Below are positions 25,806 to 44,347 of a stretch of 64,000 nucleotides of DNA, in pieces. How positions within the stretch are numbered: position 1 is the first letter of the stretch; every line of letters starts with the position of its first letter. The DNA is taken from positions 62,001 to 126,000 of the forward strand of contig JAIQFE010000001.1 of NCBI GenBank assembly GCA_020073445.1, written 5' to 3'. The position numbers were made by a program, and so were the translations under genes. Origin of the DNA: Terriglobia bacterium. GTDB taxonomy: Bacteria > Acidobacteriota > Terriglobia > Bryobacterales > Bryobacteraceae. The notes beneath the pieces were generated by a model, which saw only the letters and a list, made by a program, of their open reading frames with translations, had not been told where the DNA came from and searched no databases.

Positions 25806-28244
25806 TTACGGTATGTACACCTGGTACGGCGCCCAATAAAACGGTTTGCGTGCGGAGCCCCTTGATTGAAGAAGAGCCAGCTTCGCTTGTCTCAGCGCCG
25901 CGGCCGGGCGCATTCCCGAGGAGATCCCCCCGTACAGCCTGTCCATCAGCGCGGAAGAGGTTTGATCGCCCACATCCCACAGCCCCGCGATCACGGCGTG
26001 CGCGCCCGCCCGAAGAAACGCCCAGGCGAAGCCGACCAGGCCTTCCCCGCCGTATGCTCTTGCGCCGGCACTTCTGCACGCTGAGATCGTCACCAAATTG
26101 GCGGACAGTTTCAGAGCGGCGATGTCGCGCGCGTACAGCTTGTACTGGTCCCCGCTCTTGGACAGAATGACCGCGGACTCCAGCGGGCGCTGCGCATTCG
26201 TCTCGGCATGAGCGGCAAAGTGAATGATCGAGAATCGTTCCGGCATGGAATCGAGAAACGCTCGCGGCGTGGCCTCGTATCCGACGCGAAGCAACTGTTC
26301 ATCGTTCGCAAATCGGTGGCCGATCGATTCGATCTCCGCCCGCGCAGCCGGCAACTCTGGATATTGCGGGGTCGCGGACTGCGGCGCGCCGATGAGGAGC
26401 AAGGATGGCCGGTTCCGATCCGGGCGAGCCTCCGGTTGGGTCTCAGCCAACACGCTGACAGATGGCGCCATGGAAAGTTCTACTTCCTGTATCCAATAGC
26501 GGCTCCCATCGGCTGCCGGAAGCGCTTCCAAGTTCAGCGCGTGTAGCGGACCGTCGGAAACGACGACCACTCGCTCGGCGGGCCCAAGTAGCTTCCGGAC
26601 CGGCCCCAGAAGCATTTCACTCAGTCGTTCGCCCTGGACCATCCGTTCCCTCACCGGATCGCGCAGTTCATCTTCGACGGCATGGCGGTAAATGCGAATC
26701 AAGTCCGCGATCTGGCTCTCCCCGGGCAGTTCTTTCATTCGAATTTCATCCGGCTTGATGACCCAGACGAAGGAGCGTCGCGGCGCGATCCAAAACGATA
26801 ACACCACCTGTCCGCTTTGGCGGGCATACTTCTTAAAGTTATCCAGCCGTACCTGCTGGATGGTGCCGGGCTGCAAGCCCAACTTTTCGGCCAGTACGCG
26901 CGAGCGACTATACTCGGCGACCTGGAGAGCCTTGTCTTCATGCCCTTCAGATACCAACAGGTCTACGTAGTCCTTGAAGAACTGAATTTGCAGGTTGTAA
27001 TAGGTGAGTCTGGAGTCATCGTTGATTAAGCCCGAGCGGACCTTCTCGATCACCTCCAGGCCACGCTCATATTCCGAGTTGGCTTGACCGTACTCCTTCT
27101 GGCTCGCGAACAGAGACGCTAGGCGAACGTGGGAATTCCATTCCAGGTACGGCACGTTGCTCGACTTCGAGATCACTTCGCGATAAAGACGTACGGCCTC
27201 TTCCGTGCGTCCACGGCCTGTGGCTATCGCCGCTTCATTCAGTTGCAAATAGGGGTCGTCCGGATCTCGCACCAGCACATAGGCCTGGCGATTCCATGAC
27301 TCGGCTTCGCTCCACTTGCTCTGCTCAATGAACGCCAAGGCCAGTTGACCGGCCCATCGCGCCGCGTCCCTGGGATTCACGCGTTTGGCGACTTCGATCG
27401 CCTGCTCGAAGTCAGAGACAGCCCGTTCGGGCTGGTTTCCCAGGAGATGAGTGTTGCCAAGTTCTCCCAGAGCGTCTTCCAGATTCCCCAGATCGCCGAT
27501 CTCGCGGAGTTCTTGAATCGCCGGAATCAGATATTGTTCCGCGCGATCCAAATCACGCAGCACGCCGTACGCGATCCCGAGGTTGTTTCCGGCAAGCGCT
27601 TCAAGCTGGCTGGCGTGGGCTCGTTTTGCGACGTCTAGGGCCAAACGGCCATACTCGGCGGATTCGTCATAGCGTCCCAACTGCTTCTTGGAGAAGGAAA
27701 GGTTCAGCAGAGCCGCGGCTTGATAGAAAAGATTTCCGGACGCGGCGGCGCGGGCGGCGGTCTGTTCCAGCAGTTCTTCCGCACGGTCGAAGCTTCCCTG
27801 CCGGGCGAGCATGGCTCCGCGCAATATCAGCGCCTTGAATTTTGAGTCGACGTCGGCGTCCATGACTGGATCAGCTTCATCCAAAAGTGCTTTGGCTTTT
27901 GCGCCCTCGCCCATCTTCCACAGCGCATCGGCTCGGTCCACCAGCCAGCGAAGATGAAGGGCAGGATCGCTCAACGCGGCCAACCGGTCGAGAATTTTCC
28001 AGGCGTCGCCGGTCTGCCGGCGTCCCAGCAGGATTTCGGCCTGCAGCAACTCCAGCCGCACGGACGCTGGATCAGAAGGCCGGCTGTTGTGTTGTGCTAA
28101 AGCCGCGGTGAGGACGTCTTGCGCGTGCCCGAAATTTCCTTGCTGGAATGCAGGCCAGGCTTCCAGGTAGGCTTCCTGGGGCGACGGCCGGCGCGAACAA
28201 GAGACTGCGCCGAACACCACCAGCAGGACGAACCAACATCGCAT
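25806..28244 (-). CDS. TPR-CHAT (caspase-like) lipoprotein
   Basis: 812-aa protein. An N-terminal lipobox (VFGAVSC, Cys 16) predicts membrane anchoring. Residues about 25-420 are tetratricopeptide repeats (for example LGNNLGIAYGVLRDLDRAEQ). The C-terminal 300 residues are a CHAT domain, the caspase/separase-type peptidase fold, with the catalytic pair visible: H679 in HFAAHAE and C723 in SACRSA, followed by GEGLVGFAWAFLRAGAHAV. It is the last gene of an operon with sigma factor, anti-sigma-like protein and a 280-aa unknown, starting 3 bases after that unknown. The target is unknown; the neighbour is the first candidate. Confidence 0.9.
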   Translation of the reverse strand: MRCWFVLLVVFGAVSCSRRPSPQEAYLEAWPAFQQGNFGHAQDVLTAALAQHNSRPSDPASVRLELLQAEILLGRRQTGDAWKILDRLAALSDPALHLRWLVDRADALWKMGEGAKAKALLDEADPVMDADVDSKFKALILRGAMLARQGSFDRAEELLEQTAARAAASGNLFYQAAALLNLSFSKKQLGRYDESAEYGRLALDVAKRAHASQLEALAGNNLGIAYGVLRDLDRAEQYLIPAIQELREIGDLGNLEDALGELGNTHLLGNQPERAVSDFEQAIEVAKRVNPRDAARWAGQLALAFIEQSKWSEAESWNRQAYVLVRDPDDPYLQLNEAAIATGRGRTEEAVRLYREVISKSSNVPYLEWNSHVRLASLFASQKEYGQANSEYERGLEVIEKVRSGLINDDSRLTYYNLQIQFFKDYVDLLVSEGHEDKALQVAEYSRSRVLAEKLGLQPGTIQQVRLDNFKKYARQSGQVVLSFWIAPRRSFVWVIKPDEIRMKELPGESQIADLIRIYRHAVEDELRDPVRERMVQGERLSEMLLGPVRKLLGPAERVVVVSDGPLHALNLEALPAADGSRYWIQEVELSMAPSVSVLAETQPEARPDRNRPSLLLIGAPQSATPQYPELPAARAEIESIGHRFANDEQLLRVGYEATPRAFLDSMPERFSIIHFAAHAETNAQRPLESAVILSKSGDQYKLYARDIAALKLSANLVTISACRSAGARAYGGEGLVGFAWAFLRAGAHAVIAGLWDVGDQTSSALMDRLYGGISSGMRPAAALRQAKLALLQSRGSARKPFYWAPYQVYIP

Positions 28245-28247
28245 TGT

Positions 28248-29090
28248 CTATGGCCAAGTGCTTCCGCCGGAGCAGCCGGAGCCAATTTCCGTATCGGAAT
28301 GCTTCAAGCGAACCAAATTCACGCGGCGAACGTAGGGGCCGATGAGAATCTCGCCCAAGATGATCTTGCCGAATGCGGGCCAGTTAATGATGTAGCCGTT
28401 GTCTTCGATCGAAGCACCGTCGGGTAGCCGGCCCTCGATCTTCTTGACCATCGACCCCACGATATAAGCCGACTGGTTTTGGTGGAGGCGGCCGTTCGCA
28501 TCGTCTTTAAGGAACGTAGAGAACGGGGCACCGCGCAGAGCGCCGTTTTTGCCGCAGTGCGTCAGAAATTCTGCCTGGGTCGGGAGCGAATTGAAGGAGT
28601 CCGTATCCAACTGGACCTGGAGCGGATATCCGCCCAGCTTGAGGCCGTCAATCGTGGCTTTTCCCAAGGTGATGCTCGGGAATGGAGCGCTCAAGGCCTG
28701 AGAGGACGTCATATGAAGCTCGCAATGCTCCAGTGAAAAACCCTCCGCCACTTCTACCTTCGAAACTTCGCTGATGGTTCTGGACACAAACGGCTTGTCC
28801 GGGGCTGGCGCATCGCTCTCCGCCAAGGAGCGAGCCGATCCAACGGAAAGGAGTTCCCGTTTCCTCAAATCGTCGAGGATATTCGCGCTTACCTTGCCCG
28901 CTGGGATGTGCCGTCCGTCGATTATCAGTTTCCCGATCGATTCGGATCGTCCCCCCACCATCGGCAGATGCGCCGGAGCGACTGTCTCAATCGGCAAGTC
29001 GATGGGCACGTCGCCGATCTTCGTGAGTCGTCCGCCTACTCCAAATGCGCCTGCAATATGCAGGTACCGCCTGTCGTTTCGAGAGTCCAT
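28248..29090 (-). CDS. 280-aa hypothetical protein between anti-sigma and CHAT genes
   Basis: No family recognised. The protein has no signal peptide. It looks beta-rich, with two similar halves: GDVPIDLPIETVAPAHLP to IGKLIIDGRHIPAGK, and ITLGKATIDGLKLGG to FGKIILGEILIGPYVRR. The C-terminus is Gly/Ser-rich (GSGCSGGSTWP). It lies 16 bases after the anti-sigma-like gene and 3 bases before the CHAT gene, so it is made with them. A structural partner or proteolytic target of the CHAT protein is possible, but nothing in the sequence proves it. Confidence 0.8.
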   Translation of the reverse strand: MDSRNDRRYLHIAGAFGVGGRLTKIGDVPIDLPIETVAPAHLPMVGGRSESIGKLIIDGRHIPAGKVSANILDDLRKRELLSVGSARSLAESDAPAPDKPFVSRTISEVSKVEVAEGFSLEHCELHMTSSQALSAPFPSITLGKATIDGLKLGGYPLQVQLDTDSFNSLPTQAEFLTHCGKNGALRGAPFSTFLKDDANGRLHQNQSAYIVGSMVKKIEGRLPDGASIEDNGYIINWPAFGKIILGEILIGPYVRRVNLVRLKHSDTEIGSGCSGGSTWP

Positions 29091-29106
29091 TGTTAGTTAG
29101 AAGTTG

Positions 29107-29811
29107 TTACCGTTCGAGTTTAAAAGGGTATTGTCCCAGTTCCCGCGGGCTGCCGGTTGACACCGCGCTTTGGACGATCAGACTGTAGTCTCCTGGCGGC
29201 ACAGTCAGCCGAGGGATTGAGAGAGTGATTCGCTCGCCTGGATTGGGCGTCTCTCCAGGCAATTCGAACATCGTTCGCCCGTCTGCCGATTTCACCGTGA
29301 AGCGCAGTGGAGTGCCAGAGGCCAATTCCGGGGATTCGGGCGGGTCAAACACGAGGACTACGGCTTCTCCGGCTACGGTCCGCACCGTCGAGGCGTCTCC
29401 TCTCGTTACCGGCCTAAGGACGATCGATTTGACGGTCCTGGGAGTTTCGAATTCGTTCACTTGACGCCGCAAGCCAGGGATGGTCGAGAACGTTTCAATG
29501 CCGACAACAACCACCAGAACGGCGAGCAGCGCGGCTGCAGCCTGTGGCCGGAGCCATCCGAACCAGTCCCATCCAGACGGCTTTGGCGACTCCACTGCAC
29601 CGGTGTAGGACCGGGCAGGGACAGCCGACGAAGCCTCAGCCGCCATGAGATCCTTCGCATCTTCTATGAATTGCGCAGCGGCGCGAAGGTCTTCGGCGCA
29701 GACCGAGCATTCAAAGTAGTGCTCTTCAAACGAGTCCCGCTCAGCCGGAGACATCTCACCGAGCAGATACGATTCGACCGCCAGGTTTCGGACCGCTGGT
29801 TCGTGTTCCAT
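29107..29811 (-). CDS. anti-sigma-factor-like membrane protein with N-terminal zinc finger
   Basis: 234-aa protein. The N-terminal 60 residues match the zf-HC2/ZAS type: HYFECSVCAEDL gives the H-x3-C-x2-C zinc ligands. One membrane helix follows at about 103-123 (AAAALLAVLVVVVGIETF), then a periplasmic beta-rich domain (VLVFDPPESPELASG to TLSIPRLTVPPGDYSL). I use the ATG at 29811, which has GAGGGAG upstream; a GTG at 29838 would add nine residues. Its position after an ECF sigma gene supports a role as that factor's inhibitor. The periplasmic domain resembles dockerin/BACON-like sandwiches, but this is not certain. Confidence 0.85.
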   Translation of the reverse strand: MEHEPAVRNLAVESYLLGEMSPAERDSFEEHYFECSVCAEDLRAAAQFIEDAKDLMAAEASSAVPARSYTGAVESPKPSGWDWFGWLRPQAAAALLAVLVVVVGIETFSTIPGLRRQVNEFETPRTVKSIVLRPVTRGDASTVRTVAGEAVVLVFDPPESPELASGTPLRFTVKSADGRTMFELPGETPNPGERITLSIPRLTVPPGDYSLIVQSAVSTGSPRELGQYPFKLER

Positions 29812-29870
29812 GCTCCCTCGGGCTATAGTGACTGACACCTACGAATCATTACAGTTTTCAACGAATTTCC

Positions 29871-30473
29871 CTACCCCGCAGCACCGCGCCCCTGGTACAA
29901 GGCCGTTCGCAGCCTGGTCCGGGCTCTGTGCAGAAGAACCCGAAGGTAGTCGCGGCTGACGCTAAACTCCTTGCAGACCAGATCTTTATCATCCTCATCC
30001 AGAAAGATCCTTTGGAGCAGTGCGCGATCCTTGGCGGGAAGATCGTCCAAAGCCCGCTTCACCAACCCCCTGCGCTCCTCGGCTAACATTCCGGATTCCG
30101 CGCCAGCGTGGCCGCTGGGAAGATCCCCGGGAGGAAGCTCCGTAAGACGCTTATCCCGCCGGAACATCTCCAGCATGACGTTATTGCAAACCGTGTTTAC
30201 GTAGGCCCCCAGCCGTTCCGGGTGCTCGATGGCCCCCTTCCGGAGACTCCTGAGCACTCGCAGCAGTGTCTCCTGGCGAATGTCGTCGGCGGCTTGCCCG
30301 GAGCGCAAACGGGCATTCGCCTTGATTCGGATCAGGTCTCCGAAATAGCGGGCGAAGTGGTCTTCTATTTCCGGGTCGCCCTCAGTGAGCCGCCGGAGAT
30401 AGTCCACGTCAAATGAAAAGCGGGTCTGCAAGGGCCCCCTGGCGTCACTAAGTTTCCATCTTAATACAAGCAC
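29871..30473 (-). CDS. ECF-type RNA polymerase sigma factor (first of two paralogues)
   Basis: 200-aa sigma-70 family factor. Region 2: DPEIEDHFARYFGDLIRIK to ADDIRQETLLRVLRSLRKG and YVNTVCNNVMLEMFRRDKR. Region 4: DDLPAKDRALLQRIFLDEDD, then DLVCKEFSVSRDYLRVLLHR as the helix-turn-helix. The start is a GTG at 30473 with a weak ribosome-binding site, so the true N-terminus may be slightly shorter. It shares close sequence with the factor at 37752-38366. It is divergent from the 70-aa peptide/MNIO operon and is followed by the anti-sigma-like gene. Confidence 0.92.
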   Translation of the reverse strand: MLVLRWKLSDARGPLQTRFSFDVDYLRRLTEGDPEIEDHFARYFGDLIRIKANARLRSGQAADDIRQETLLRVLRSLRKGAIEHPERLGAYVNTVCNNVMLEMFRRDKRLTELPPGDLPSGHAGAESGMLAEERRGLVKRALDDLPAKDRALLQRIFLDEDDKDLVCKEFSVSRDYLRVLLHRARTRLRTALYQGRGAAG

Positions 30474-30496
30474 CCGGAAGTTCTTGGGTTAAGAGA

Positions 30497-30509
30497 CACC
30501 TTAGAGGTG
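30497..30509. promoter_or_regulatory. small palindrome between the sigma gene and the MNIO operon
   Basis: CACCT-TAG-AGGTG is a perfect 5-bp inverted repeat. It contains the 7-mer ACCTTAG, which also forms the palindrome in front of the second sigma gene at 37678-37699. It abuts the -35-like TGAAACG at 30508, so a bound protein could block that promoter. This is a candidate operator only. Confidence 0.35.
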
Positions 30510-30535
30510 AAACGTTCCAGCACCAGCCGTCACTA
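30508..30535 (+). promoter_or_regulatory. predicted ECF-type promoter, site 1 (70-aa peptide/MNIO operon)
   Basis: TGAAACG, a 15-base spacer, then TCACTA. The same element with exactly 15 bases between the boxes occurs at 33368-33395, 34789-34816 and, on the minus strand, 44315-44342, each time shortly before a gene of this cluster. Distance from the last base to the ATG is 56 bases. Confidence 0.65.
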
Positions 30536-30591
30536 CACTAGGCAGCCTCGCGCAAATCCAGCGAGGCGCACATTTTGAGGAGGAAGCAAGT

Positions 30592-30804
30592 ATGGCATCA
30601 GGAATCGGAAAGTCGGCTACTGTGAGCCTTAGCGGTCACAATCAGACCCTTGACACACTGAATCACATCGTCGCCACCATTGCAGGACGGGGCGGGTGCG
30701 ACAAGTGCGGCAGAATCGCGCTGCTGCGAGTGGAGTACGTGGTGGATCCGCCCGCGGATCTCGCCAAGCAAGGCGTCATTTCCTTTCAGACGGAAGGATT
30801 CTAA
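30592..30804 (+). CDS. 70-aa CxxC peptide, candidate RiPP precursor
   Basis: Small cytosolic protein with a very good ribosome-binding site (GAGGAGG). It has no signal peptide. The N-terminal half (SLSGHNQTLDTLNHIVATIA) could serve as a leader; the centre is GRGGCDKCG with Cys 36 and Cys 39; the C-terminus is VISFQTEGF. The MNIO (DUF692) gene starts 2 bases after its stop. Known MNIO enzymes modify cysteines of short peptides encoded directly upstream, so this is the natural substrate candidate. Alternatives are a small zinc-binding regulator or a structural subunit of the enzyme. Confidence 0.75.
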   Translation: MASGIGKSATVSLSGHNQTLDTLNHIVATIAGRGGCDKCGRIALLRVEYVVDPPADLAKQGVISFQTEGF

Positions 30805-30806
30805 GC

Positions 30807-31778
30807 ATGTCCGGCAGCGGCGCGAAATTCAAAGCGGCAGTCCCTCGACTTGGGATTGGCCTCCCGTACTTCGCGTCGCTGCCGGCAGAATTTTATCAGT
30901 GCGGCGCGATCGATTTCGTCGAGATCACGCCGGAGATCCTGTGCCGCCAGCGGCCCGCCGGGAACGCGACCGAACTTAAGATTGTTCCGCAACAGATGGA
31001 ACGGGCGCGGAGCACGTGCGCCGGACTCCCGGTGGTCGTCCACGGGGTCGAACTGTCGATCGGTTCCGCGCACGGCTGGAACGAGGCCTATCTCGAGATG
31101 CTCGACACTTTCCAGAAAATGTGGCCGTTCGTGTGGCACAGCGAACACCTGGGGTTCCAGACATTTCGCGGATCCGATGGGTGCACTCAGGAAGTAGGCG
31201 TTCCACTTCCCTTGCCGCCAACCAACGAGGCGGCGGATTTGGTGGCCCGGCGAAGCGCCACGATCCTCGAACGCTACGGAGTGCCGTTCCTTCTGGAGAA
31301 CCCCGCGTACTACTTGCCGGATCCGCCCAGCGATCCGGAGATCGGCGACGACATCGGGCTCATGCGGAAAATCCTAGAGCGCAGCGGCAGCCTGCAGTTG
31401 CTCGACCTGCACAACGTTTACTGCAACGCGATCAACCATGGTTTCGATCCGTTCGCCGCAGTCGACCGGATGCCCCTGGATGCGGTTGCGGAAATTCACA
31501 TCGCGGGCGGCTCCTGGGACGGCGGATTCTGGATGGATGCGCATGACGGGCGCGTGCCGGAACCCGTTTGGGAGTTGTTGGAATACACCTTGCCTCGATG
31601 CCCTTCGGTAGGCGGCATTGTTTTCGAGATGCTGGACGACCACGTCTCGCGGCTGGGCGATGGGATCCTGCAGGAATTGACCCGTGCCCGAAAAGTTTGG
31701 ATGAGTTGCGGGCAGGGAGGCGGTTATGGCGCTACTCGATTTTCAGACGTCACTCGCGCGGTTAGTGCGTGTCTCTAA
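30807..31778 (+). CDS. DUF692 family multinuclear non-haem iron enzyme (MNIO)
   Basis: 323-aa TIM-barrel protein of the DUF692 family (MbnB, TglH, ChrH, BufB). Family blocks are in order: GIGLPYFASLP, DFVEITPE, VVVHGVELSIG (H79), WHSEHLGF (H111, E113, H114), LLENPAYYL (E164), LLDLHNVYCNAINHG (D200, H202), EIHIAGG (H231) and DAHDG (D244, H246). All positions expected to bind iron appear present. The family oxidatively rewrites cysteine in ribosomal peptides. I use the ATG at 30807; longer starts would overlap the peptide gene. The next gene overlaps by 53 bases, implying a fixed partner. Confidence 0.9.
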   Translation: MSGSGAKFKAAVPRLGIGLPYFASLPAEFYQCGAIDFVEITPEILCRQRPAGNATELKIVPQQMERARSTCAGLPVVVHGVELSIGSAHGWNEAYLEMLDTFQKMWPFVWHSEHLGFQTFRGSDGCTQEVGVPLPLPPTNEAADLVARRSATILERYGVPFLLENPAYYLPDPPSDPEIGDDIGLMRKILERSGSLQLLDLHNVYCNAINHGFDPFAAVDRMPLDAVAEIHIAGGSWDGGFWMDAHDGRVPEPVWELLEYTLPRCPSVGGIVFEMLDDHVSRLGDGILQELTRARKVWMSCGQGGGYGATRFSDVTRAVSACL

Positions 31779-32460
31779 CGGCGGCGATCCATCGCCGGGC
31801 GTATCTCTGACTCCCGGTGAGCGGCGCTATCTTTCGGATCTTGCGGGAAACCCTGCATTCTGTTTCACGGTCAAAGTGCAGCGATCCTGGTGCGCCGGAC
31901 GGGCGGCGAAGGCGGCATATCTCACTCTGTCGATTCTCCCCAGCGAGACGCGCGACCAGTTGCTGGAAGAGTGGGTCGGCTCCGGCGGCGGCACGCACTC
32001 GTTTGTCGGTGCCGAGTCGGAGGCCTTCCTGGAGTTCATTGCCCGCAGCCTTCCGGACCCCTCGCATGAGTTGACCATTTGCAGGATGGAGCTGGCGGCC
32101 CTTCGATCGAGCGAGGGTTCAATACGCTTCCAGCGGCCCCAGCTATCCCGGATCGATCGCACGGATTGCCTCCTGCGGCGAGGACATTACGCCGGAGTGG
32201 TCCACTTCTACGCGGAACCGGAGAGGGTGTTGAACGCCCTGCTGAAACGGGACCCTTGTCCGGCGATCTCGTCGGACGTTACGACGCTCATTTTTGGACC
32301 CGGGCTCGATCGGCTGTACATGCGGGCATCGTGGAGTGAAAGGGCCCTCTATGACAGGCTACGGTCGTACGTTTCCACTGCGGATTTATTCACGGAGGGC
32401 TTCACCCGGGAAACAATCGAGCGGCTCCTTGAGGGCGGGGTACTCGAATACGCGGAATAG
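31726..32460 (+). CDS. MNIO partner protein (putative peptide-binding subunit)
   Basis: 244-aa cytosolic protein whose start lies 53 bases inside the MNIO gene, with GGGAGG upstream of the ATG. No named family is certain. The N-terminal part (LLDFQTSLARLV to LAGNPAFCFTVKVQRSWCAG and LPDPSHELTICRMELAAL) is helical; the second half (HYAGVVHFYAEPERVLNALL to ETIERLLEGGVLEYAE) looks mixed alpha/beta and ends in a winged-helix-like unit. MNIO enzymes such as MbnB, TglH, ChrH and BufB each need a small partner that binds the leader peptide; by position this gene fills that role. Confidence 0.75.
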   Translation: MALLDFQTSLARLVRVSNGGDPSPGVSLTPGERRYLSDLAGNPAFCFTVKVQRSWCAGRAAKAAYLTLSILPSETRDQLLEEWVGSGGGTHSFVGAESEAFLEFIARSLPDPSHELTICRMELAALRSSEGSIRFQRPQLSRIDRTDCLLRRGHYAGVVHFYAEPERVLNALLKRDPCPAISSDVTTLIFGPGLDRLYMRASWSERALYDRLRSYVSTADLFTEGFTRETIERLLEGGVLEYAE

Positions 32461-32502
32461 TTTGAAGTACTGCACTACAAATCCACCAACAGGAGAAATA
32501 CA

Positions 32503-33270
32503 ATGCCAGTGAATCGCAAATACGGTTGGGCGCCCGACTTGCCCGATCACCGTGACCATCTTTATTCGGCTCCCCAGCCGATACTCGCCAAATTGCCGCC
32601 TAAGAAGGATCTTCGGTCCGGTTGTCCGCCCGTGTACGACCAGGGACAACTTGGCAGTTGCACCGCTAACGCAATATCCGGCGCTATTCAGTTCGATCAG
32701 AAGAAGCAGGGCTTGAAGGTATTCATGCCTTCCCGGCTATTCGTCTACTACAACGAGCGGACCATGGAAGGGTCGGTCAATTCCGACGCTGGGGCACAGA
32801 TTCGCGACGGCGTGAAGTCTGTAGCGAACCTCGGAGTCTGCCCGGAACCCGAGTGGCCGTATGACATCAATAAATTCGCGAACAAGCCAACGCCAAAGTG
32901 CTACACCGACGCAACCAAGTGTGAGGCAGTGGGCTACCAGCGGCTCGATTCCACCAACCTGAACCAGCTGAGAGGTTGCATCGCATCCGGGTTCCCCTTC
33001 GTCTTCGGGTTCACCGTCTATGATGCGTTCGAAGGGCAGGACGTGGCGAAAACAGGCGTCCTGGACATGCCCGGTCCCAAGGAGAAAGTCGTGGGAGGAC
33101 ACGCGGTGCTAGCCGTGGGTTACGACGATTCTTCGCAGCGCTTCACAGTGCGCAATTCGTGGGGCAAGGATTGGGGCATGAAAGGCTACTTCACCATCCC
33201 CTACACGTACCTTACGACGACCAACCTCGCCGATGACTTCTGGACGATTCGCATCCTGAAAGAGTCGTAG
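32503..33270 (+). CDS. papain-like cysteine peptidase (C1 family)
   Basis: 255-aa C1-type peptidase without a signal peptide or long prodomain. The oxyanion Gln and nucleophile Cys are in YDQGQLGSCTANA (Q48, C53), His in VVGGHAVLAVGYDD (H200) and Asn in VRNSWGKDWGMKGYF (N218), so the triad is complete. Length is that of a mature papain domain. AGGAG precedes the ATG, 42 bases after the MNIO partner, with no hairpin between them. It may cleave the leader of the 70-aa peptide, or act on the large proteins encoded next; the sequence cannot choose. Confidence 0.92.
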   Translation: MPVNRKYGWAPDLPDHRDHLYSAPQPILAKLPPKKDLRSGCPPVYDQGQLGSCTANAISGAIQFDQKKQGLKVFMPSRLFVYYNERTMEGSVNSDAGAQIRDGVKSVANLGVCPEPEWPYDINKFANKPTPKCYTDATKCEAVGYQRLDSTNLNQLRGCIASGFPFVFGFTVYDAFEGQDVAKTGVLDMPGPKEKVVGGHAVLAVGYDDSSQRFTVRNSWGKDWGMKGYFTIPYTYLTTTNLADDFWTIRILKES

Positions 33271-33290
33271 CTCCGGAAGGAGTGTGAGAT

Positions 33291-33327
33291 TGCGAACACT
33301 GATCGATTTTTCCAATCGGTGTTCGCA
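33291..33327 (+). terminator. 13-bp hairpin after the C1 peptidase
   Basis: TGCGAACACTGAT pairs with ATCGGTGTTCGCA (one G-T pair) around an 11-base loop. A T-rich stretch (TTTTCTTTT) follows a few bases later. It begins 20 bases after the peptidase stop and ends upstream of the next ECF-type promoter, so it probably closes the peptide/MNIO/partner/peptidase operon. Confidence 0.65.
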
Positions 33328-33367
33328 GTATCTCGCGATTTTCTTTTCGGCGATCTCTACCTAGTCC

Positions 33368-33395
33368 TGAAACGCCGGTGCGGTCGCAGACACTA
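33368..33395 (+). promoter_or_regulatory. predicted ECF-type promoter, site 2 (443-aa protein)
   Basis: TGAAACG, 15 bases, ACACTA; 38 bases separate the last base from the ATG. Same boxes and spacing as at 30508, 34789 and 44342 (minus). Confidence 0.65.
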
Positions 33396-33433
33396 TCCGA
33401 CGAGATCGACCGGACCTCAAAAAGGAGTAAGTA

Positions 33434-34765
33434 ATGAAGGATGTAACAAAAGCTTCCGCTACAGACAACATGGACTGCTGTCCCGAGCTATCGAAAGATC
33501 CCTGTTGCGACATTCTGGATCTTCGCTATCGGCTCCCACATCGGATCCAGGTAAAGGACGCTGCCGGGCGCGTGGATGTGGTCACTGTTGAAGTGATCTT
33601 GCATGTCCGCATTACCCGCTGTCCGGGGCCGTTGTCGCTGGGCGATCCCATCCATACGATGACGCTGCTGCCGGGGGAGAAGGTGAAGCTGTTCACTTCA
33701 GACCGCCGCACCAGGTACACGTTTGACAGCTCGACTAAGGTCTCCTACCGCAATGAACAGCTGTCGGAAGAGCGTTACTTCATGGCGGCGATGCAGAACT
33801 CCATGCAGGATCTGACCGTTACGAACTCCAGCCACAGTTCGGCCTCGGAAAGCGGCAAGTGGGACTTTCACGGGGATGCAAGCGGGTCCATCGGCTTCTT
33901 CTCGGCTAGCGCCGATACCAATGCCAACGGGTCGCACAGTGGATCGTCGACATCGGATTTCCTGAGCCAGTTATCCTCGCACGCCCGCGCGTCATCCAGC
34001 CAGTCGGCGCAGGCTACGCACGCCGCCGCGTCCCTCTCGATCGGCGAAGTTTCGACCAGGACTCATACGGAAGCCGAATCGGAGGATCATTTCGAATCCT
34101 CGTCGCGCGAGTTCTCCAATCCCAATCACTGCCACGCCGTCACTTTCTTTTTCTATCGCCTGAACAAGAAGCAGACCGTCAAGATCACGCTGGAACGGAT
34201 CGAGCGTCGTGTCGACGATCCTGCGGCGCCCACGCGGGTTTCGCTCAACCCTCCGGTATCGAGAGGACAGATCGACGTGGTTCCGGCAAGCGTGCTCGCA
34301 ACGCAAAAGGACCGCGTGGCCATCGAGCAGATCGGCCGCGACAGTCTGGCGGCGGACGAAAGGCAGCGATTTGGCACCAACCTTTCCAGCGGGACCGCTT
34401 CGCTGGCGTTTGCGCCCGTGTTTCAAGCCGCGCAGGAGCCCCTCTCCGCGGCAGTTCGTAAGGCCGCGCTCGAACAGGCGGATAAGGACCTGGTGGCTGC
34501 CGGGCTCCTGGCCTCCGTCGGCGGTGCGGTTGCTCCACAAGCCCAGAAGAACTTTGAGGTGGTCAGCGAATCCTGCCTGCCGACCGCGGGTGTGATCGTA
34601 AAAGGCTGTATCGACACCTGCGATATCTGCGAACCCGAGGTTCAACGAAGGATTGAGCTGGAGCTCGAGGAAAAAGAGCTGCGCAATCAACTGCTAAAGA
34701 AGCAAATCGACCTGCTGGAGAAATCGCAAGAGTACCGCTGCTGCCCGCCCGATTCTGAGTCGTAA
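33434..34765 (+). CDS. 443-aa hypothetical protein with Cys pairs, Ser/His-rich centre and coiled coil
   Basis: No family recognised. Residues 1-30 carry two CC pairs (MDCCPELSKDPCCDIL). Residues about 30-125 look like a beta domain (VVTVEVILHVRITRCPG to TMTLLPGEKVKLFTSDRR). Residues about 130-225 are low-complexity Ser/His/Ala (SSHSSASES, SSHARASSSQSAQATHAA). A second beta unit follows (HAVTFFFYRLNKKQTVKIT). The C-terminus has CIDTCDICEP, a Glu/Leu coiled coil (RRIELELEEKELRNQLLKKQ) and a final CC. AAAGGAG precedes the ATG. It has its own ECF-type promoter. A self-assembling or surface protein is conceivable; there is no signal peptide. Confidence 0.85.
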   Translation: MKDVTKASATDNMDCCPELSKDPCCDILDLRYRLPHRIQVKDAAGRVDVVTVEVILHVRITRCPGPLSLGDPIHTMTLLPGEKVKLFTSDRRTRYTFDSSTKVSYRNEQLSEERYFMAAMQNSMQDLTVTNSSHSSASESGKWDFHGDASGSIGFFSASADTNANGSHSGSSTSDFLSQLSSHARASSSQSAQATHAAASLSIGEVSTRTHTEAESEDHFESSSREFSNPNHCHAVTFFFYRLNKKQTVKITLERIERRVDDPAAPTRVSLNPPVSRGQIDVVPASVLATQKDRVAIEQIGRDSLAADERQRFGTNLSSGTASLAFAPVFQAAQEPLSAAVRKAALEQADKDLVAAGLLASVGGAVAPQAQKNFEVVSESCLPTAGVIVKGCIDTCDICEPEVQRRIELELEEKELRNQLLKKQIDLLEKSQEYRCCPPDSES

Positions 34766-34788
34766 GGTTCTTTTCGATAGGGGAAGGC

Positions 34789-34816
34789 GGAAACGTTGTC
34801 CACGCCGCCTTCACTA
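34789..34816 (+). promoter_or_regulatory. predicted ECF-type promoter, site 3 (739-aa protein operon)
   Basis: GGAAACG, 15 bases, TCACTA; 48 bases to the ATG at 34865. It differs from the other three sites only at the first base of the -35 box. Confidence 0.6.
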
Positions 34817-34864
34817 TTGATCGCACAACAATCTCTCTCGATCGAAGCTGAAAGGAAATCTCAC

Positions 34865-37084
34865 ATGGCTATCACGATGCAAGGAAGTTGGACTGTCCGC
34901 GTTTCGACGCTGAGTGCGGCGTTCAAGCAGCGGTTCGTCATAACAGGCGCGTCCGCGGGCAACGGAACTTATCCAGGCACGCCGGGAACCAGCGTGTTCG
35001 CAACCGGAGCTCAGTGGTCCGTAAACGTTCAGAACTCCTCGGACGGAGGTGCAACCTGGGTGGACTCGGCCCAGCGGATCACTTTTCCAACCGTGTCGGG
35101 CGGGTTGCTGAAGTTCGATATCCGCTCGGACGATAGCGCCGGCGATAAGGACTACAACGACCTGATCCTCACTTGCTCCATGCCGGCGAGCTCCAGCGAC
35201 TACGTCGTGTATGGAACCGCGAAGACTTACTCCGGACGTTGCTTCCGGAATCCATGCCGGAACGACTATGTGGTGCTGGATCCGCACATCCATCTCGAGA
35301 ACATCTGCCAGCGTTTCCCGGAAATCTGCGGCGTCATAGAAAAACTCTATCCGGAACGGATCGTCAAGAGGCCTTTCCCGCTGCCGGATCCGCCGCCGGA
35401 CCTCCGTCCCATTGTCCTCCCGACTGGCGTGGTGAGCGCTGCAACGGGTATCGCGTTTTACTCAAAGGGGCTGCCCGCGCAGTCCGATGTCGCGACGGAG
35501 AAGCAGGCCGTAGAAAAGCTCACGCCGGACGCGAGGGAGAAGCGCGCAACGGAACAGCTGCAGACTACCGCCCGGGCCGTGACTTTCAACGCAGCCGCAG
35601 CGAAATCCGGAGCGGATCTCCTGACAGCCGCGGATCGCGCTGCCATCGCCTCGATTATCGACGCCGGGATCAAGGCTTTTCCGTGCAATGTGGATCCGGC
35701 CCCGGGACTGCTCTTGCGTTTCCAGGAATACGACCGGACCGCAGGGGAGAAACTGGGCGGACCATACACCGGAACCGGCGATCGTCAAGACCTGGGCCTA
35801 GCAGTAACCGACGAACTCGGGAACTACATCTTCCGCTTCGCTCCAACCCTTGCCGATATAGCAGCCGAGGTATCCGACGTGGCCAGCGGGGAATCTCTTG
35901 CGACTCAACTCCGGCCGGACGTGATCGTTCAAGTCCTGGGCACGGGCATGACGATGACGTATGAGACCGCTCCGTATTACAACATCCTGAACGTCCAGCG
36001 GATCGACTTATGCATTCCTTATGCGAGTGCGCATCCCAATCGGGCGTGCTCCGGCGATCGCGTCATACAGCGCATCGGCGATGTCATCGTGCTGCACTCG
36101 GCATTGGGCGGCCATCCCAACACTTTGGACGCGGACGGGAAAATCACCTGCAGAAATGCCAACGCGCCTGTGGTGGATTGCGCCGGTTGGCGCGGAGGCT
36201 TGCGTCTGTATTGCTGCTTCGGCAAGCCGGAAGCGCTCCGCTACGCCATCTTCTTCAAGCTCCCGTCAGAGACGAACTGGCATCCCGTCAACCAGACCCA
36301 CGTCCTGAACTACATACCCGACTTCGCGCCCGGATACACAGGCACCCCGGTCGGGCCCACGTTGCATAACGTGAATCCGAGCGTCCCCACGGGGCTCGCG
36401 CCGAACACGCCGATTCCGACGTACGCCAACCACGAGAACGATTTGAACTGGATCGAGAACGATCTGAAAATGATCCTGAGCTCGAGTTTGTATCGCGCCC
36501 AAGACGATCCTGGTCCGGTGGACTTTCACATCGAAGCGTATGATGGCGCCGGTAATTTTATTGCAGCCACCGCCGACACGATTACACTCTATATCCACAA
36601 CCAGACGACCATGGTCGGACGGCCGCAAAACAGCAAGGGCGATATCCAGTCCATCACCATGGGCGCCACCACACTGGGCGATTGCACGCTGTTCAATCTC
36701 AGTTCACCGAATGTCGCGCTGACGGTGAAGTATCGCGCCGTGGATCCCGCCGGATTCCTGCAAGGCTGGACGCTGACGGTAACTCGCGGAAACAATAACA
36801 ATGTGCCGGTAACCGTGGCCGGCGGGGTCGCCCCTCGCACTTACAACACTCCGCCTGACCCGCTCGACTGCGACTTCACGGGCACGCGCGAGTTCGGGAA
36901 CGTGGACGACTATGTCACCACGGATCTGCAGCCGTCAGGAGGCGCGAACTGGCTCCCCGATGACGTTACCTTCTGTGCCTTCGCTTTCACGCTGCGGGCA
37001 TATGATCGCGTCACCGATGGTCGTGACTGGCATCCGGAGGTCGTGTTCTGGCAGGACCTGATCGGATTGAGTTACGGATCCTGA
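34865..37084 (+). CDS. 739-aa hypothetical protein, beta-rich
   Basis: No family recognised and no signal peptide. The first 100 residues resemble a carbohydrate- or calcium-binding sandwich: QGSWTVRVSTLSAAFKQRF to FDIRSDDSAGDKDYNDLI, where DKDYND recalls calcium-binding DUF4114-type loops. A central part (YDRTAGEKLGGPYTGTGDRQ) reads like a transthyretin/SdrD-type repeat. Several Cys follow (DLCIPYASAHPNRACSGD, CCFGK). The C-terminus is again beta-rich and ends with LIGLSYGS. I use the ATG at 34865 with AAAGGAAA upstream; the TTG at 34796 lies inside the promoter element. DUF1360 follows 11 bases later. Confidence 0.85.
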   Translation: MAITMQGSWTVRVSTLSAAFKQRFVITGASAGNGTYPGTPGTSVFATGAQWSVNVQNSSDGGATWVDSAQRITFPTVSGGLLKFDIRSDDSAGDKDYNDLILTCSMPASSSDYVVYGTAKTYSGRCFRNPCRNDYVVLDPHIHLENICQRFPEICGVIEKLYPERIVKRPFPLPDPPPDLRPIVLPTGVVSAATGIAFYSKGLPAQSDVATEKQAVEKLTPDAREKRATEQLQTTARAVTFNAAAAKSGADLLTAADRAAIASIIDAGIKAFPCNVDPAPGLLLRFQEYDRTAGEKLGGPYTGTGDRQDLGLAVTDELGNYIFRFAPTLADIAAEVSDVASGESLATQLRPDVIVQVLGTGMTMTYETAPYYNILNVQRIDLCIPYASAHPNRACSGDRVIQRIGDVIVLHSALGGHPNTLDADGKITCRNANAPVVDCAGWRGGLRLYCCFGKPEALRYAIFFKLPSETNWHPVNQTHVLNYIPDFAPGYTGTPVGPTLHNVNPSVPTGLAPNTPIPTYANHENDLNWIENDLKMILSSSLYRAQDDPGPVDFHIEAYDGAGNFIAATADTITLYIHNQTTMVGRPQNSKGDIQSITMGATTLGDCTLFNLSSPNVALTVKYRAVDPAGFLQGWTLTVTRGNNNNVPVTVAGGVAPRTYNTPPDPLDCDFTGTREFGNVDDYVTTDLQPSGGANWLPDDVTFCAFAFTLRAYDRVTDGRDWHPEVVFWQDLIGLSYGS

Positions 37085-37095
37085 CAGGTCGAAAA

Positions 37096-37440
37096 ATGCA
37101 GTTCTACAGGCTGGTCCTGGCAATCCTCGGCGTGTGGCGGGTAACTCACTTGCTACACGCTGAGGATGGTCCAGCGGACCTTTTTACGAGACTCCGCACG
37201 GCTCTCGGCTCAAATATGGCCGGAAGAGCGCTCGATTGTTTCTACTGCTTGAGTCTGTGGACCGCTCTTCCCACCGCATATTGGCTTGGGCAAACATGGG
37301 GCGAACGTGTTCTTGTGTGGCTAGCGACGTCCGCTGGGGCGATTCTGCTGGAACGCATGACAGCGCCCCGCTCTGCCCAGGCCACGTATTTCGAGGATCC
37401 CCTGGAAATGACCGAGGAGCGCGATGTGCAACTGCGGTAA
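37096..37440 (+). CDS. DUF1360 domain-containing membrane protein
   Basis: 114-aa protein recognised by the DUF1360 signature: LVLAILGVWRVTHLLHAEDG at the N-terminus and LDCFYCLSLWTALPTAYWLG in the middle, with two to three hydrophobic helices. Function is unknown; the family is known from spore-forming bacteria and phage-like regions. It lies 11 bases after the 739-aa gene and overlaps the next gene by 17 bases. Confidence 0.88.
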   Translation: MQFYRLVLAILGVWRVTHLLHAEDGPADLFTRLRTALGSNMAGRALDCFYCLSLWTALPTAYWLGQTWGERVLVWLATSAGAILLERMTAPRSAQATYFEDPLEMTEERDVQLR

Positions 37441-37690
37441 GAAAACTCAGCCCCGGCCCACCATCGGCACGGCCGAGCCTCCGCCAGCCGCGCTCAAACA
37501 TCCGCCGCCTCAACAGGCAAGCGTGGAATTCGAGTACGTTGGTCCGACGGCCATGACGGTACGCGGCCCGTTCTCAGGCGCGCGATACCGCTTCCACTAC
37601 CCAGGCGCCCGTCTCCGAGTGCATCCACATGACTCGAGCAGCCTTGCAGCCATACCAAATCTTCAAGCTATCTCCCCGCCTAAGGTATAA
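37424..37690 (+). CDS. 88-aa Cys-motif protein, hypothetical
   Basis: Small protein with MCNCGKK at the N-terminus, a Pro-rich linker and a compact beta domain (VEFEYVGPTAMTVRGPFSG, RYRFHYPGARLRVHPHD). Genes of this pattern occur near phage-type structural genes, but I cannot name a family. It starts 17 bases inside DUF1360 with GAGGAG upstream. Its TAA stop lies inside the palindrome at 37678-37699. Confidence 0.75.
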   Translation: MCNCGKKTQPRPTIGTAEPPPAALKHPPPQQASVEFEYVGPTAMTVRGPFSGARYRFHYPGARLRVHPHDSSSLAAIPNLQAISPPKV

Positions 37691-37699
37691 ACCTTAGGC
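37678..37699. promoter_or_regulatory. perfect palindrome upstream of the second ECF sigma gene
   Basis: GCCTAAGGT-ATAA-ACCTTAGGC, 9-bp arms. The half-site TAAGGTAT recurs at 37706-37713, and the 7-mer ACCTTAG also occurs at 30498-30504 beside the first sigma gene. No U tract follows, so an operator for the sigma gene is at least as likely as a terminator for the 88-aa gene. Confidence 0.5.
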
Positions 37700-37751
37700 T
37701 GCATTTAAGGTATTAGGGCCATAGAACTAATCGCGAATTCGTACCATACTC

Positions 37752-38366
37752 GTGAATACAATATCGACGATTTCGGGGAGACGGCATCGCGTGACTTATC
37801 AGGCCTTTGATGACGATTATGTGAATCGTTTGATCGCGCAAGACGCGGAAACGGAACATCAGTTCATTTCATATTTCAATGCGTTATTAGTCATCAAACT
37901 CAAACGGACTCTGCGTACACGCCAGGCCATCGAAGACGTCCGCCAGGAAACCTTCCTGCGGGTGTTCCGGGCGATACGAAGAAACGAGCTGGCCAAGCCG
38001 GAACGTCTGGGCGCATTTGTAAATGGAGTCTGCAACAACGTCCTGGCGGAATACTACCGATCCGCGTCGCGCCTCGGCCCGCTTCCAGCAGACGGCCTCG
38101 ACTCGTCAGCGGAATACCGGAACCCCGAGACAGAGCTCCAGGCGGAGGAACGAAAACGGCGCGTGCACGGCATCCTGAAGGAACTGCCCGCCAAGGATCA
38201 GGAGATTCTTCGGCTCATTTTTATCGAGGAACAAGAGAAAGACGAAGTCTGCCGTCGTTGCGGCGTGGACCGAGGTTACCTGCGGGTGATGCTCCATCGC
38301 GCCAAGAACCGCTTTCGGAACCAACTGCCCAAAGCGGGAACTGCCAGTCGCTCGGCCTCCGTTTAA
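37752..38366 (+). CDS. ECF-type RNA polymerase sigma factor (second paralogue)
   Basis: 204-aa sigma factor closely similar along its length to the one at 29871-30473: YVNRLIAQDAETEHQFISYF, AIEDVRQETFLRVFRAIRR, LGAFVNGVCNNVLAEYYR (region 2) and LKELPAKDQEILRLIFIEEQ with CRRCGVDRGYLRVMLHRAK (region 4). GTG start at 37752. No anti-sigma gene is adjacent. Together the two factors bracket the MNIO and large-protein operons, and either could recognise the GAAACG-N15-CACTA element. Confidence 0.92.
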   Translation: MNTISTISGRRHRVTYQAFDDDYVNRLIAQDAETEHQFISYFNALLVIKLKRTLRTRQAIEDVRQETFLRVFRAIRRNELAKPERLGAFVNGVCNNVLAEYYRSASRLGPLPADGLDSSAEYRNPETELQAEERKRRVHGILKELPAKDQEILRLIFIEEQEKDEVCRRCGVDRGYLRVMLHRAKNRFRNQLPKAGTASRSASV

Positions 38367-38399: not shown

Positions 38400-39788
38400 T
38401 TAGTACAGTGAGGGCCGTGCGCCTCCGCCCAGCAGCGACGAGTTCATGTTGACCGTGGTATGCCGGCCTTCATCTCCTCCCCAGGAAAAGAGAATGTAGA
38501 TCAGCGGAAAGCCGCCGGCGCGTAGCGTTAAGCCCGCGGAGTAGCTGTGCCGGAGATGCGTGAAATCGAGATCGCCGCGCGTGTTGGCCACTTTTCCTTC
38601 GTCGATCATCGCAGTCACACCCAGGGGCAGGTCAAAGAGAGAGTGTTCGAAGCTCGCCCGGAACAGCATCGTGTTGGGCGCGCGAAAGCGATAATCCCGA
38701 TAGCTGCCGAGCGATGGAGCGCCGTCAATATCGGACCCTCCCAGAGTCGGCTGAAAGTAAAAAGGCACGGCGTGTCCGGAGGACACAAAGGACTCATTCA
38801 TCATGAACCGCAGGTTAATGCTGCCCTCCAGATTCCGCGATGTGCCTCCGGTGACTGCCGGACAGTCATGCACGGTGAGCCCTGCGGAGCAGTCATTCGG
38901 TCCGTTCGAATCGAGCGGAATCAGCGATCGGGTTTTTCGGTATAGCGGGAACTGATGCGCAAGGTCCAGCGTGAACCGGTTGAAGGAAAATTGCGAAGCG
39001 CCCGGCGAAACGAATTCCTTGAATTCGGCAAGATAGTTGAGGCGCACGAAGCCGCCCGCGAACTGGGGACGGATGCGCACGCCTTCCCCGAACTGCGCGA
39101 ACGCGCTTTGCTGGGTGAGTCCTGGGGCTGTGGCGTCCGTGTAAAGCTGGCCGATCGAGGGGCTGGCCTGGTTCAGACTCGGCCGGATGTCCACAAAGCG
39201 GCCGTTGGCCTCGCCCAACAGCGATACATTCAACTTCTTGAAGACCGGCCAGACCGCGTTGGTCCCGACCACGGTCTCCTGCATTCCGAAGTACGACCGT
39301 GCGGATTCCTTGGTGTCGGGACCGATTCCGAAGTAGCTGACCTTCTCCAGCGAAATACCCTGAGCGTAGAGATGGAACACGGGGTATTCCTGAACCGCCA
39401 GATTGGACGTGGTTCCCGAACCACCCGGGCTCACCACGATCTTCCGCCGGGGCACAAACACCGCGGTCATGTATCCTCCGGCTCGCCAGGACCCATTGGG
39501 AGTGGTCACGCCATCCGCGTCCCAGTTCAAGCGCCAGGATTCGTTAGGAGTCCAGTGAGTCACCAGTGCCAAGCCGGCTCCCACGCCGTTTCCGGGCGCC
39601 AGGCTGCCCACGGCGATGTGCAGCGGCTGACCTGTAAACAAAGTCTGCCCACATCCGATGATGGTCTTGAAACCGGTGCAGTCTCCAAGATGATCTTTTT
39701 CATGCCGGAACTCCGCACCCAGGCCGCTTTCTTGCGCGTTAGCCCATCCGGCGAACAGCAAACACCCAACCAATAAAAGATTTCGCAC
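38400..39788 (-). CDS. outer-membrane beta-barrel-like protein
   Basis: 462-aa exported protein. Signal peptide 1-19 (CLLFAGWANA). The mature protein has repeated amphipathic strands ending in aromatic residues (LHIAVGSLAPGNGVGAGLAL, YFGIGPDTKESARSYFGMQE, FTLDLAHQFPLYRKTRSLIP, LRHSYSAGLTLRAGGFPLIY). This resembles BamA/TamA-type surface-antigen barrels, but no POTRA repeats precede it. It is the last gene of the peroxidase-PLC-84 aa-barrel run and converges with the second sigma factor. Confidence 0.7.
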   Translation of the reverse strand: MRNLLLVGCLLFAGWANAQESGLGAEFRHEKDHLGDCTGFKTIIGCGQTLFTGQPLHIAVGSLAPGNGVGAGLALVTHWTPNESWRLNWDADGVTTPNGSWRAGGYMTAVFVPRRKIVVSPGGSGTTSNLAVQEYPVFHLYAQGISLEKVSYFGIGPDTKESARSYFGMQETVVGTNAVWPVFKKLNVSLLGEANGRFVDIRPSLNQASPSIGQLYTDATAPGLTQQSAFAQFGEGVRIRPQFAGGFVRLNYLAEFKEFVSPGASQFSFNRFTLDLAHQFPLYRKTRSLIPLDSNGPNDCSAGLTVHDCPAVTGGTSRNLEGSINLRFMMNESFVSSGHAVPFYFQPTLGGSDIDGAPSLGSYRDYRFRAPNTMLFRASFEHSLFDLPLGVTAMIDEGKVANTRGDLDFTHLRHSYSAGLTLRAGGFPLIYILFSWGGDEGRHTTVNMNSSLLGGGARPSLY

Positions 39789-39796
39789 GATCGGTT

Positions 39797-40051
39797 TTAC
39801 CTTCCACCGCTCTTGGCAACCTTCGGATGAAGGATAGCCGTCATTTTTCGGATATACTCGGCAGCGCTTCCTTCCGTAGTGACGGACTTGGGGTCCGTGC
39901 CAGTCCGTTTTTCCGGAGGAAAGGTTTTCTCCAGTTCCTGAAGATGCTTCACCTGATTCAGCAACAGGGAGTTCTTTGCCAGCGGCCGCTGCATGTTGAA
40001 CGAACCGCGCGAGGGCTTGGGGACCCGAATTAGGTTTGAAGGGGTTGCCAT
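39797..40051 (-). CDS. 84-aa hypothetical protein
   Basis: Small soluble protein (MATPSNLIRVPKPSRGSFNM, then LNQVKHLQELEKTFP and YIRKMTAILHPKVAKSGGR). No family recognised and no signal or membrane segment. The ATG at 40051 has AGGAG 8 bases upstream. It is placed 11 bases after the phospholipase-like gene and 8 bases before the barrel gene, so it belongs to their operon. Confidence 0.75.
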   Translation of the reverse strand: MATPSNLIRVPKPSRGSFNMQRPLAKNSLLLNQVKHLQELEKTFPPEKRTGTDPKSVTTEGSAAEYIRKMTAILHPKVAKSGGR

Positions 40052-40062
40052 GATTTCTCCTG

Positions 40063-41289: not shown

Positions 41290-41303
41290 CTGGCTCCTTG
41301 TTG

Positions 41304-41329
41304 AATAGACAGGATTAATAGACAGGATT
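41304..41329. repeat. tandem duplication of a 13-bp unit
   Basis: AATAGACAGGATT occurs twice head-to-tail in the 90-base gap between the haem peroxidase and phospholipase-like genes, just before the latter's ribosome-binding site. It may be a replication slip or a double binding site. Confidence 0.75.
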
Positions 41330-41379
41330 CGGTTGTGCCCTTAAGTGTTACGAAAAAGCCCACAGCTCGTTTCTTCGAG

Positions 41380-44274: not shown

Positions 44275-44314
44275 GGAACTACCTTTCGATGCTGACATCC
44301 ATCTCACTAGGACA

Positions 44315-44342
44315 TAGTGGAGTTTCCGTGCGGAACGTTTCA
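44315..44342 (-). promoter_or_regulatory. predicted ECF-type promoter, site 4 (haem peroxidase operon)
   Basis: On the minus strand TGAAACG (44342-44336), 15 bases, CCACTA (44320-44315); 40 bases to the peroxidase ATG. The TTCC following the -35 box is shared with site 1. It lies in the 73-base gap between divergent peroxidase and patatin genes. Confidence 0.65.
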
Positions 44343-44347
44343 AACTT

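Follow-up and report, generated by a model that had tools for sequence, protein, structure and literature searches.

MNIO enzymes make unusual groups from cysteine residues, and many of them lack an assigned substrate. The described systems closest to the one treated here are those for methanobactin (MbnA–MbnB–MbnC), for 3-thiaglutamate and the pearlins (TglA–TglH–TglI) and for bufferins (BufA–BufB–BufC). In TglA the reacting cysteine is added at the C terminus by another enzyme, according to the available text of that study (PMC9016710). In 2025, signal-less putative precursors encoded next to MNIO genes, adjamnio-1, -2 and -7, were described in silico; the available part of that paper gives adjamnio-7 a CxxC motif and adjamnio-1 and -2 PME-type 2 partners (Antoine et al. 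2025, PMC12452194). Here we describe a peptide–MNIO–partner cassette in a 64,000-nucleotide stretch from a Terriglobia bacterium (GenBank assembly GCA_020073445.1, contig JAIQFE010000001.1, positions 62,001 to 126,000), hereafter the window. The three-gene cassette is real, and its gene order is common to relatives in several phyla. We consider it likely that the cassette is a maturation system, of the kind that makes ribosomally synthesized and post-translationally modified peptides (RiPPs), for a peptide with conserved cysteines. It appears to belong to a widespread, chemically unexplored family already described in silico. With three genes, an evident candidate for the substrate, all iron ligands in place and a known partner fold, it offers a compact test case for MNIO action on CxxC.

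The MNIO of the window matches PF05114 with 161.6 bits (cut-off 25), and this family is present once in the 6.58-Mb draft genome of the host. The iron ligands of TglH, as given in the available text of PMC10880893, are His71, His107, Glu151, Asp184, Asn187, His216, Asp229, His231 and Glu258. By hand count on the profile alignment all nine are present in the window MNIO (H79, H114, E164, D200, N203, H231, D244, H246 and E274), and all nine are invariant in a six-row MNIO alignment. Compared with known structures, the MNIO profile finds TglH of 8hci with an E value of 5e-41 and MbnB with 8e-12. An earlier sequence-only reading of this DNA had named a DUF692 protein with the expected metal-site residues, which these results bear out; the gene coordinates, the spacings, GGCDKCG, the upstream GAGGAGG and the overlap of MNIO and partner genes also lie where it had put them (Table 1).

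The candidate precursor shares 68% identity over 66 residues with its counterpart in the sister genome G014. Between the window and G014, the ratio of non-synonymous to synonymous substitution rates is 0.25 for the peptide frame, compared with 0.16 for the MNIO gene and 0.18 for that of the partner. From its ratio and its identity we conclude that the small open reading frame behaves as a protein-coding gene. Both cysteines are encoded mid-peptide, at positions 36 and 39 (GCDKCGR). By eye the precursor has no hydrophobic N terminus, in agreement with the proposal of the sequence-only reading that it lacks a bufferin-type secretion signal. The conservation of the cysteine positions on which that reading depended was also found: in an alignment of 19 CxxCG-type peptides, whose rows were mostly chosen by their CxxC, the invariant positions are the second Cys with the Gly that follows it and the Gly preceding the first Cys, and both cysteines are present in 18 of the 19. 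A profile of these 19 precursors gave three strong matches among 151 genomes (own genome included), in the own genome, G014 and G051, each adjoining an MNIO gene and all represented within the profile itself. Four weak matches (E 0.0015 to 0.005) lay inside longer frames, and the profile does not pick up the CxxCxSG type of peptide described below. The C-terminal half (DPPADLAKQGVIS) is kept in near relatives. A structure model suggests a strand-helix-(CxxC loop)-helix-strand arrangement, with residues 7–13 as a predicted strand, at a low-confidence pLDDT (predicted local distance difference test) of 61.

The partner matched no Pfam or NCBIfam family at E values up to 1, and a search of the PDB with its sequence profile gave no relative; the best match (carboxypeptidase A1, E 0.24) was taken as chance. 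The sequence-only reading was right that it carries no evident MbnC, TglI or DUF2063 signature, but its predicted fold, related to NGO1945 (3dee) or TglI (8hi7), is that of TglI/DUF2063, on which ground we reject a new type of protein. PME-type 2 partners are encoded straight after the MNIO and lack DUF2063, MbnC and Anthrone_oxyd signatures, as is the case here. We assign the partner to this known family, with a predicted helical N-terminal domain and a C-terminal domain resembling a RiPP recognition element (RRE), a domain type that is a feature of only some PME-type 2 members.

Some MNIO is present in 39 of the 151 genomes; two of them, the own genome and its congener G014, also encode a partner alike in sequence, although this search detects only sequence-similar partners. 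G014 has the peptide, the MNIO (77%) and the partner (67%) in the same order. A CxxC peptide also lies upstream of the MNIO in G033, G051, G023 and G132, whose partners are, by eye, divergent or fused to the MNIO. A broader set of 80 loci comprises the best 80 of 117 confirmed stretches obtained with a six-MNIO alignment as the query, at one genome per species; it excludes the window and contains G014 as L047, while its members L068, L089, L113 and L125 are the same loci as L035, L036, L038 and L039. In these loci we searched the 600 bases upstream of the MNIO gene, on the plus strand, for frames of at least 30 codons with the pattern C-x(1,2)-C-(G, xSG or AASG), and took as controls 1926 windows of the same size from both strands of the same loci. 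The motif was found in 66 of the 80 loci, against 163 control windows (8.5%), a difference to be read with care: we defined the pattern once these loci had been inspected for the first time, and the loci are not independent, with several species per genus (Corallococcus, Duganella and others). Of the sequence-only reading, the maturation cassette of peptide, MNIO and partner with conserved cysteines is supported.

The origin of the motif pattern and the dependence among loci are among several points that weigh against a three-gene cassette of the RiPP type. The upstream motif is absent from 14 of the 80 loci, namely ten of Myxococcaceae, L057, L082, L123 and L050; the L050 peptide belongs to the window's family and lacks the first Cys but has the second. 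G025, whose MNIO is among the closest in the relatives, has no such upstream peptide. The residues past CxxC are conserved too, a pattern equally compatible with a small protein and a cleaved peptide. An exporter accompanies the cassette in one of the 80 loci, and among the matches listed in the open-licence literature we found no chemical or experimental study of such a peptide. Two side observations concern these loci. The neighbours are conserved in the Myxococcaceae loci without upstream CxxC (L073, L077–L080, L084, L091, L092, L094 and L097). Just upstream of the G025 MNIO (L037), on the minus strand, lies a gene for a protein with a Gly/Cys-rich tail, by eye reminiscent of TIGR04222 proteins.

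Peptide motif type and MNIO clade agree. We built a quick tree of 81 MNIOs, namely that of the window, 15 selected others and those of the 65 loci that remained after dropping 15 near-duplicates (L075, L076, L078, L079, L080, L084, L091, L092, L097, L104, L105, L109, L113, L119 and L120). Labels were assigned by the pattern, and by hand for L050, L056, L069, L103, the CxC group and the motif-less group. Five labels (three motif types, none and other MNIO) required 6 changes compared with 40.7 in shuffles, a low count that near-copies favour. By the Shimodaira–Hasegawa-like approximate likelihood ratio test (SH-aLRT), support was 99 for a clade of 27 rows (21 CxxCG, 5 CxC and 1 without motif), 95 for a clade of 30 rows (29 CxxCxSG and 1 without motif) and 100 for five rows of the Lysobacter spongiicola type. 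The window MNIO falls in a six-row subclade (SH-aLRT 99) of Acidobacteriota and Pseudomonadota, which the cassette represents, with Actinomycetota adjoining it as the nearest on the tree at lower support; its peptides carry GCxxCG or CxxCG (L050 without the first Cys) and its partners have 221–250 residues. In profile comparisons, each a single pairwise value, the window's peptide group scored 35.9% with the CxC group, 75.5% with the CxxCxSG group and 87.8% with the Lysobacter-type group, and the latter two scored 93.2% with each other. Because these are single pairwise values, we regard one superfamily as likely, not proven. As a separate observation, the MNIO frames of L121, L122, L124, L125 and L126, of the Lysobacter spongiicola type, continue for about 170–190 further residues; in L125, which is the L039 locus, this extension resembles a fused partner.

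These results bear on whether the peptide is a substrate at all. A small zinc-ribbon or regulatory protein that merely sits beside the MNIO gene would fit one weak Pfam match of the precursor, to a zinc ribbon (NOB1, E 0.11, 13.1 bits compared with a cut-off of 24.9). Such a protein would not be expected to recur upstream of MNIO genes across phyla with a motif type that agrees with the MNIO clade and, having only two cysteines, would have to form a dimer to build an all-Cys zinc site. We consider this explanation improbable.

The sequence-only reading had proposed a four-gene operon in which a papain-like peptidase cuts off the leader. The C1 peptidase is present as described (PF00112, E 7.1e-16, 59.4 bits compared with a cut-off of 20.7); it lies on the same strand, close behind the partner gene, and is followed by a hairpin. 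That hairpin, taken to close the unit, is indeed stable (z −5.7, with none of 200 shuffles equally stable), but it is not among the calls of a terminator scan; the same scan found no sigma-70-like promoter in 30300–33450. In G014 the peptidase orthologue, 91% identical, lies on contig C27 and the cassette on contig C51. There the peptidase comes right after orthologues of the window genes at 38400–47200, which in the window lie 5 kb to the right of the peptidase in the opposite relative orientation. From this gap and orientation we infer that a rearrangement probably brought the peptidase beside the cassette. No PF00112 protein was found at E 0.001 in the eight genomes of the next relatives, whose completeness is not stated, and tblastn at E below 0.01 gave no peptidase match when the 80 loci were searched together with up to 4 kb of flanking sequence. 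The distributions differ as well: a peptidase homologue occurs in 35 of the 151 genomes, with at least 52% identity over most of its length in 14, compared with two for the sequence-like partner. Since the orthologue is unlinked and the family was not found in those eight genomes, we reject the peptidase as the maturation enzyme; a four-gene operon is very improbable, and we drop the peptidase, most likely not part of the cassette, as a wrong lead. The block at 38400–47200 is, as an observation in its own right, the one directly linked to the C1 peptidase in G014 (L139).

With the cassette reduced to three genes, a mechanism can be proposed. The RRE-like domain of the partner would bind the N-terminal region of the precursor in strand form, with residues 7–13 as the predicted strand, as we infer from TglHI and MbnBC in the available text of PMC10880893. 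The partner would then dock to the MNIO and bring the two cysteines to the multi-iron site; there, by analogy, O2-dependent oxidation may act on Cys36 and/or Cys39 and the adjacent backbone. A metal- or redox-active group derived from CxxC is the probable product. In the window, the cassette includes no evident protease or exporter of its own, so that processing would fall to other cell enzymes or would not occur at all. Among the 40 neighbour groups listed from the 80 loci, which are unannotated and were judged by eye, there was no recurrent protease; they comprise MNIO, partner, peptide, antisense artefacts, ABC-type frames and genus-level synteny.

The product might be an intact cytosolic mini-protein, never cut or exported, whose CxxC is made into a metal-binding or redox centre. 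The missing signal peptide, the lack of an evident exporter or conserved protease in the window cassette, the conserved C-terminal half and the predicted strands on both sides of the Cys loop are consistent with such a fate; however, the structure model has a pLDDT of just 61, and in L051, an alphaproteobacterial locus of the window's MNIO subclade, a double-glycine site immediately precedes CTTCG, and genes for a C39 peptidase-type exporter and HlyD lie upstream of the cassette (L051:29-3944). We regard this fate as possible, although we lean against it. Scans of nine relatives' peptides gave weak, sub-cut-off RiPP-leader matches for L064 and L067 and a twin-arginine translocation (Tat) signal just above the cut-off for L053. 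With L051, these are hints that the Cys part could be a core with exchangeable leaders. A broader proposal, which we put forward tentatively and hold to be rather unlikely, is that the window peptide, adjamnio-1, -2 and -7 and the CxxCxSG peptides form one ancient superfamily of signal-less small-protein substrates, in which the motif (CxxCG, CxCG or CxxCxSG) coevolves with the MNIO and N-terminal leaders (plain, double-glycine or Tat) are exchanged, and that in the window's lineage the mini-protein stays whole and inside the cell, carrying a metal or redox centre made by the MNIO, instead of being cut and secreted.

Table 1. Features of the cassette and its immediate surroundings, in window positions.
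Feature	Position	Strand	Remarks
Candidate precursor peptide gene, 70 residues	30592..30804	+	central GGCDKCG; GAGGAGG 5′ of start
MNIO gene (DUF692, PF05114)	30807..31778	+	ATG 2 bases past peptide stop
Partner gene, 244 residues, PME-type 2 (predicted fold)	31726..32460	+	53-base overlap with MNIO gene
Papain-like C1 peptidase gene	32503..33270	+	42 bases past partner; judged outside the cassette
Long stable hairpin	33284..33336	+	behind peptidase gene
Divergent sigma factor gene	29871..30473	−	heads the sigma / anti-sigma-like / 280-residue / TPR-CHAT-like block, 25806–30473

The block on the minus strand to the left of the cassette encodes a sigma factor, an anti-sigma-like protein (by eye), a 280-residue protein with GSGCSGGSTWP at its C terminus, and a protein with TPRs and a CHAT-like end (weak match to NF041237). 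The 280-residue protein is matched in 16 of the 151 genomes, and the own genome encodes it a second time, on contig C95. Sigma, anti-sigma-like and CHAT-like genes accompany a cassette in the window, in G014 and in L085. Seven stretches of 9 to 20 kb (L161–L167), however, contain block members with no MNIO match, which rules out the block as a dedicated regulator; regulation of the cassette by the divergent sigma factor is possible. To the right, on the plus strand (33434–38366), come genes for proteins of 443 residues (with several CC motifs) and 762 residues, neither of them assigned to a family above cut-off. They are followed by a gene whose DUF1360 match stays below cut-off, an 88-residue gene and a second sigma-70-family gene (37752–38366), whose product is 46% identical to the left sigma factor.

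Each of the known systems shares part of this arrangement. Methanobactin has the same three components, precursor, MNIO and partner, and MbnB is a distant relative of the window MNIO. The TglA–TglH–TglI system resembles it in the nine iron ligands and in an MNIO with a partner of helical and, as predicted for the window, RRE-like domains; it differs in its added C-terminal cysteine, both cysteines of the window peptide being encoded mid-peptide. Bufferins likewise depend on an MNIO and a DUF2063-fold partner acting on Cys-containing precursors, by the available text of PMC12452194, but the window precursor has no Sec signal by eye, the partner has no DUF2063 signature and NF050167 scores 128.8, below its cut-off of 310. 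The new class suggested by the sequence-only reading is not supported, since the same available text already describes, in silico, signal-less precursors beside MNIOs with PME-type 2 partners, one family of them with CxxC. It was also the only paper in the open-licence literature to contain both MNIO and CxxC as whole words, or adjamnio. As in adjamnio-1, -2 and -7, the precursor has no Sec signal by eye and its gene adjoins that of the MNIO; it shares CxxC (GCDKCG) with adjamnio-7 and a PME-type 2 partner with adjamnio-1 and -2. Loci from adjamnio reference genera or species in our set (Hahella L053, Massilia L106 and Lysobacter spongiicola L126) have CxxC or CxC peptides, and the window profile scored 87.8% with the group containing L. 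spongiicola and 35.9% with the CxC group containing Massilia, scores that refer to these groups and not to the adjamnio reference proteins themselves. Compared with the adjamnio precursors, likened here by their partly available description, the window cassette stands apart in its own supported six-row MNIO subclade, its GCxxCG/CxxCG motif and its partner of 221–250 residues.
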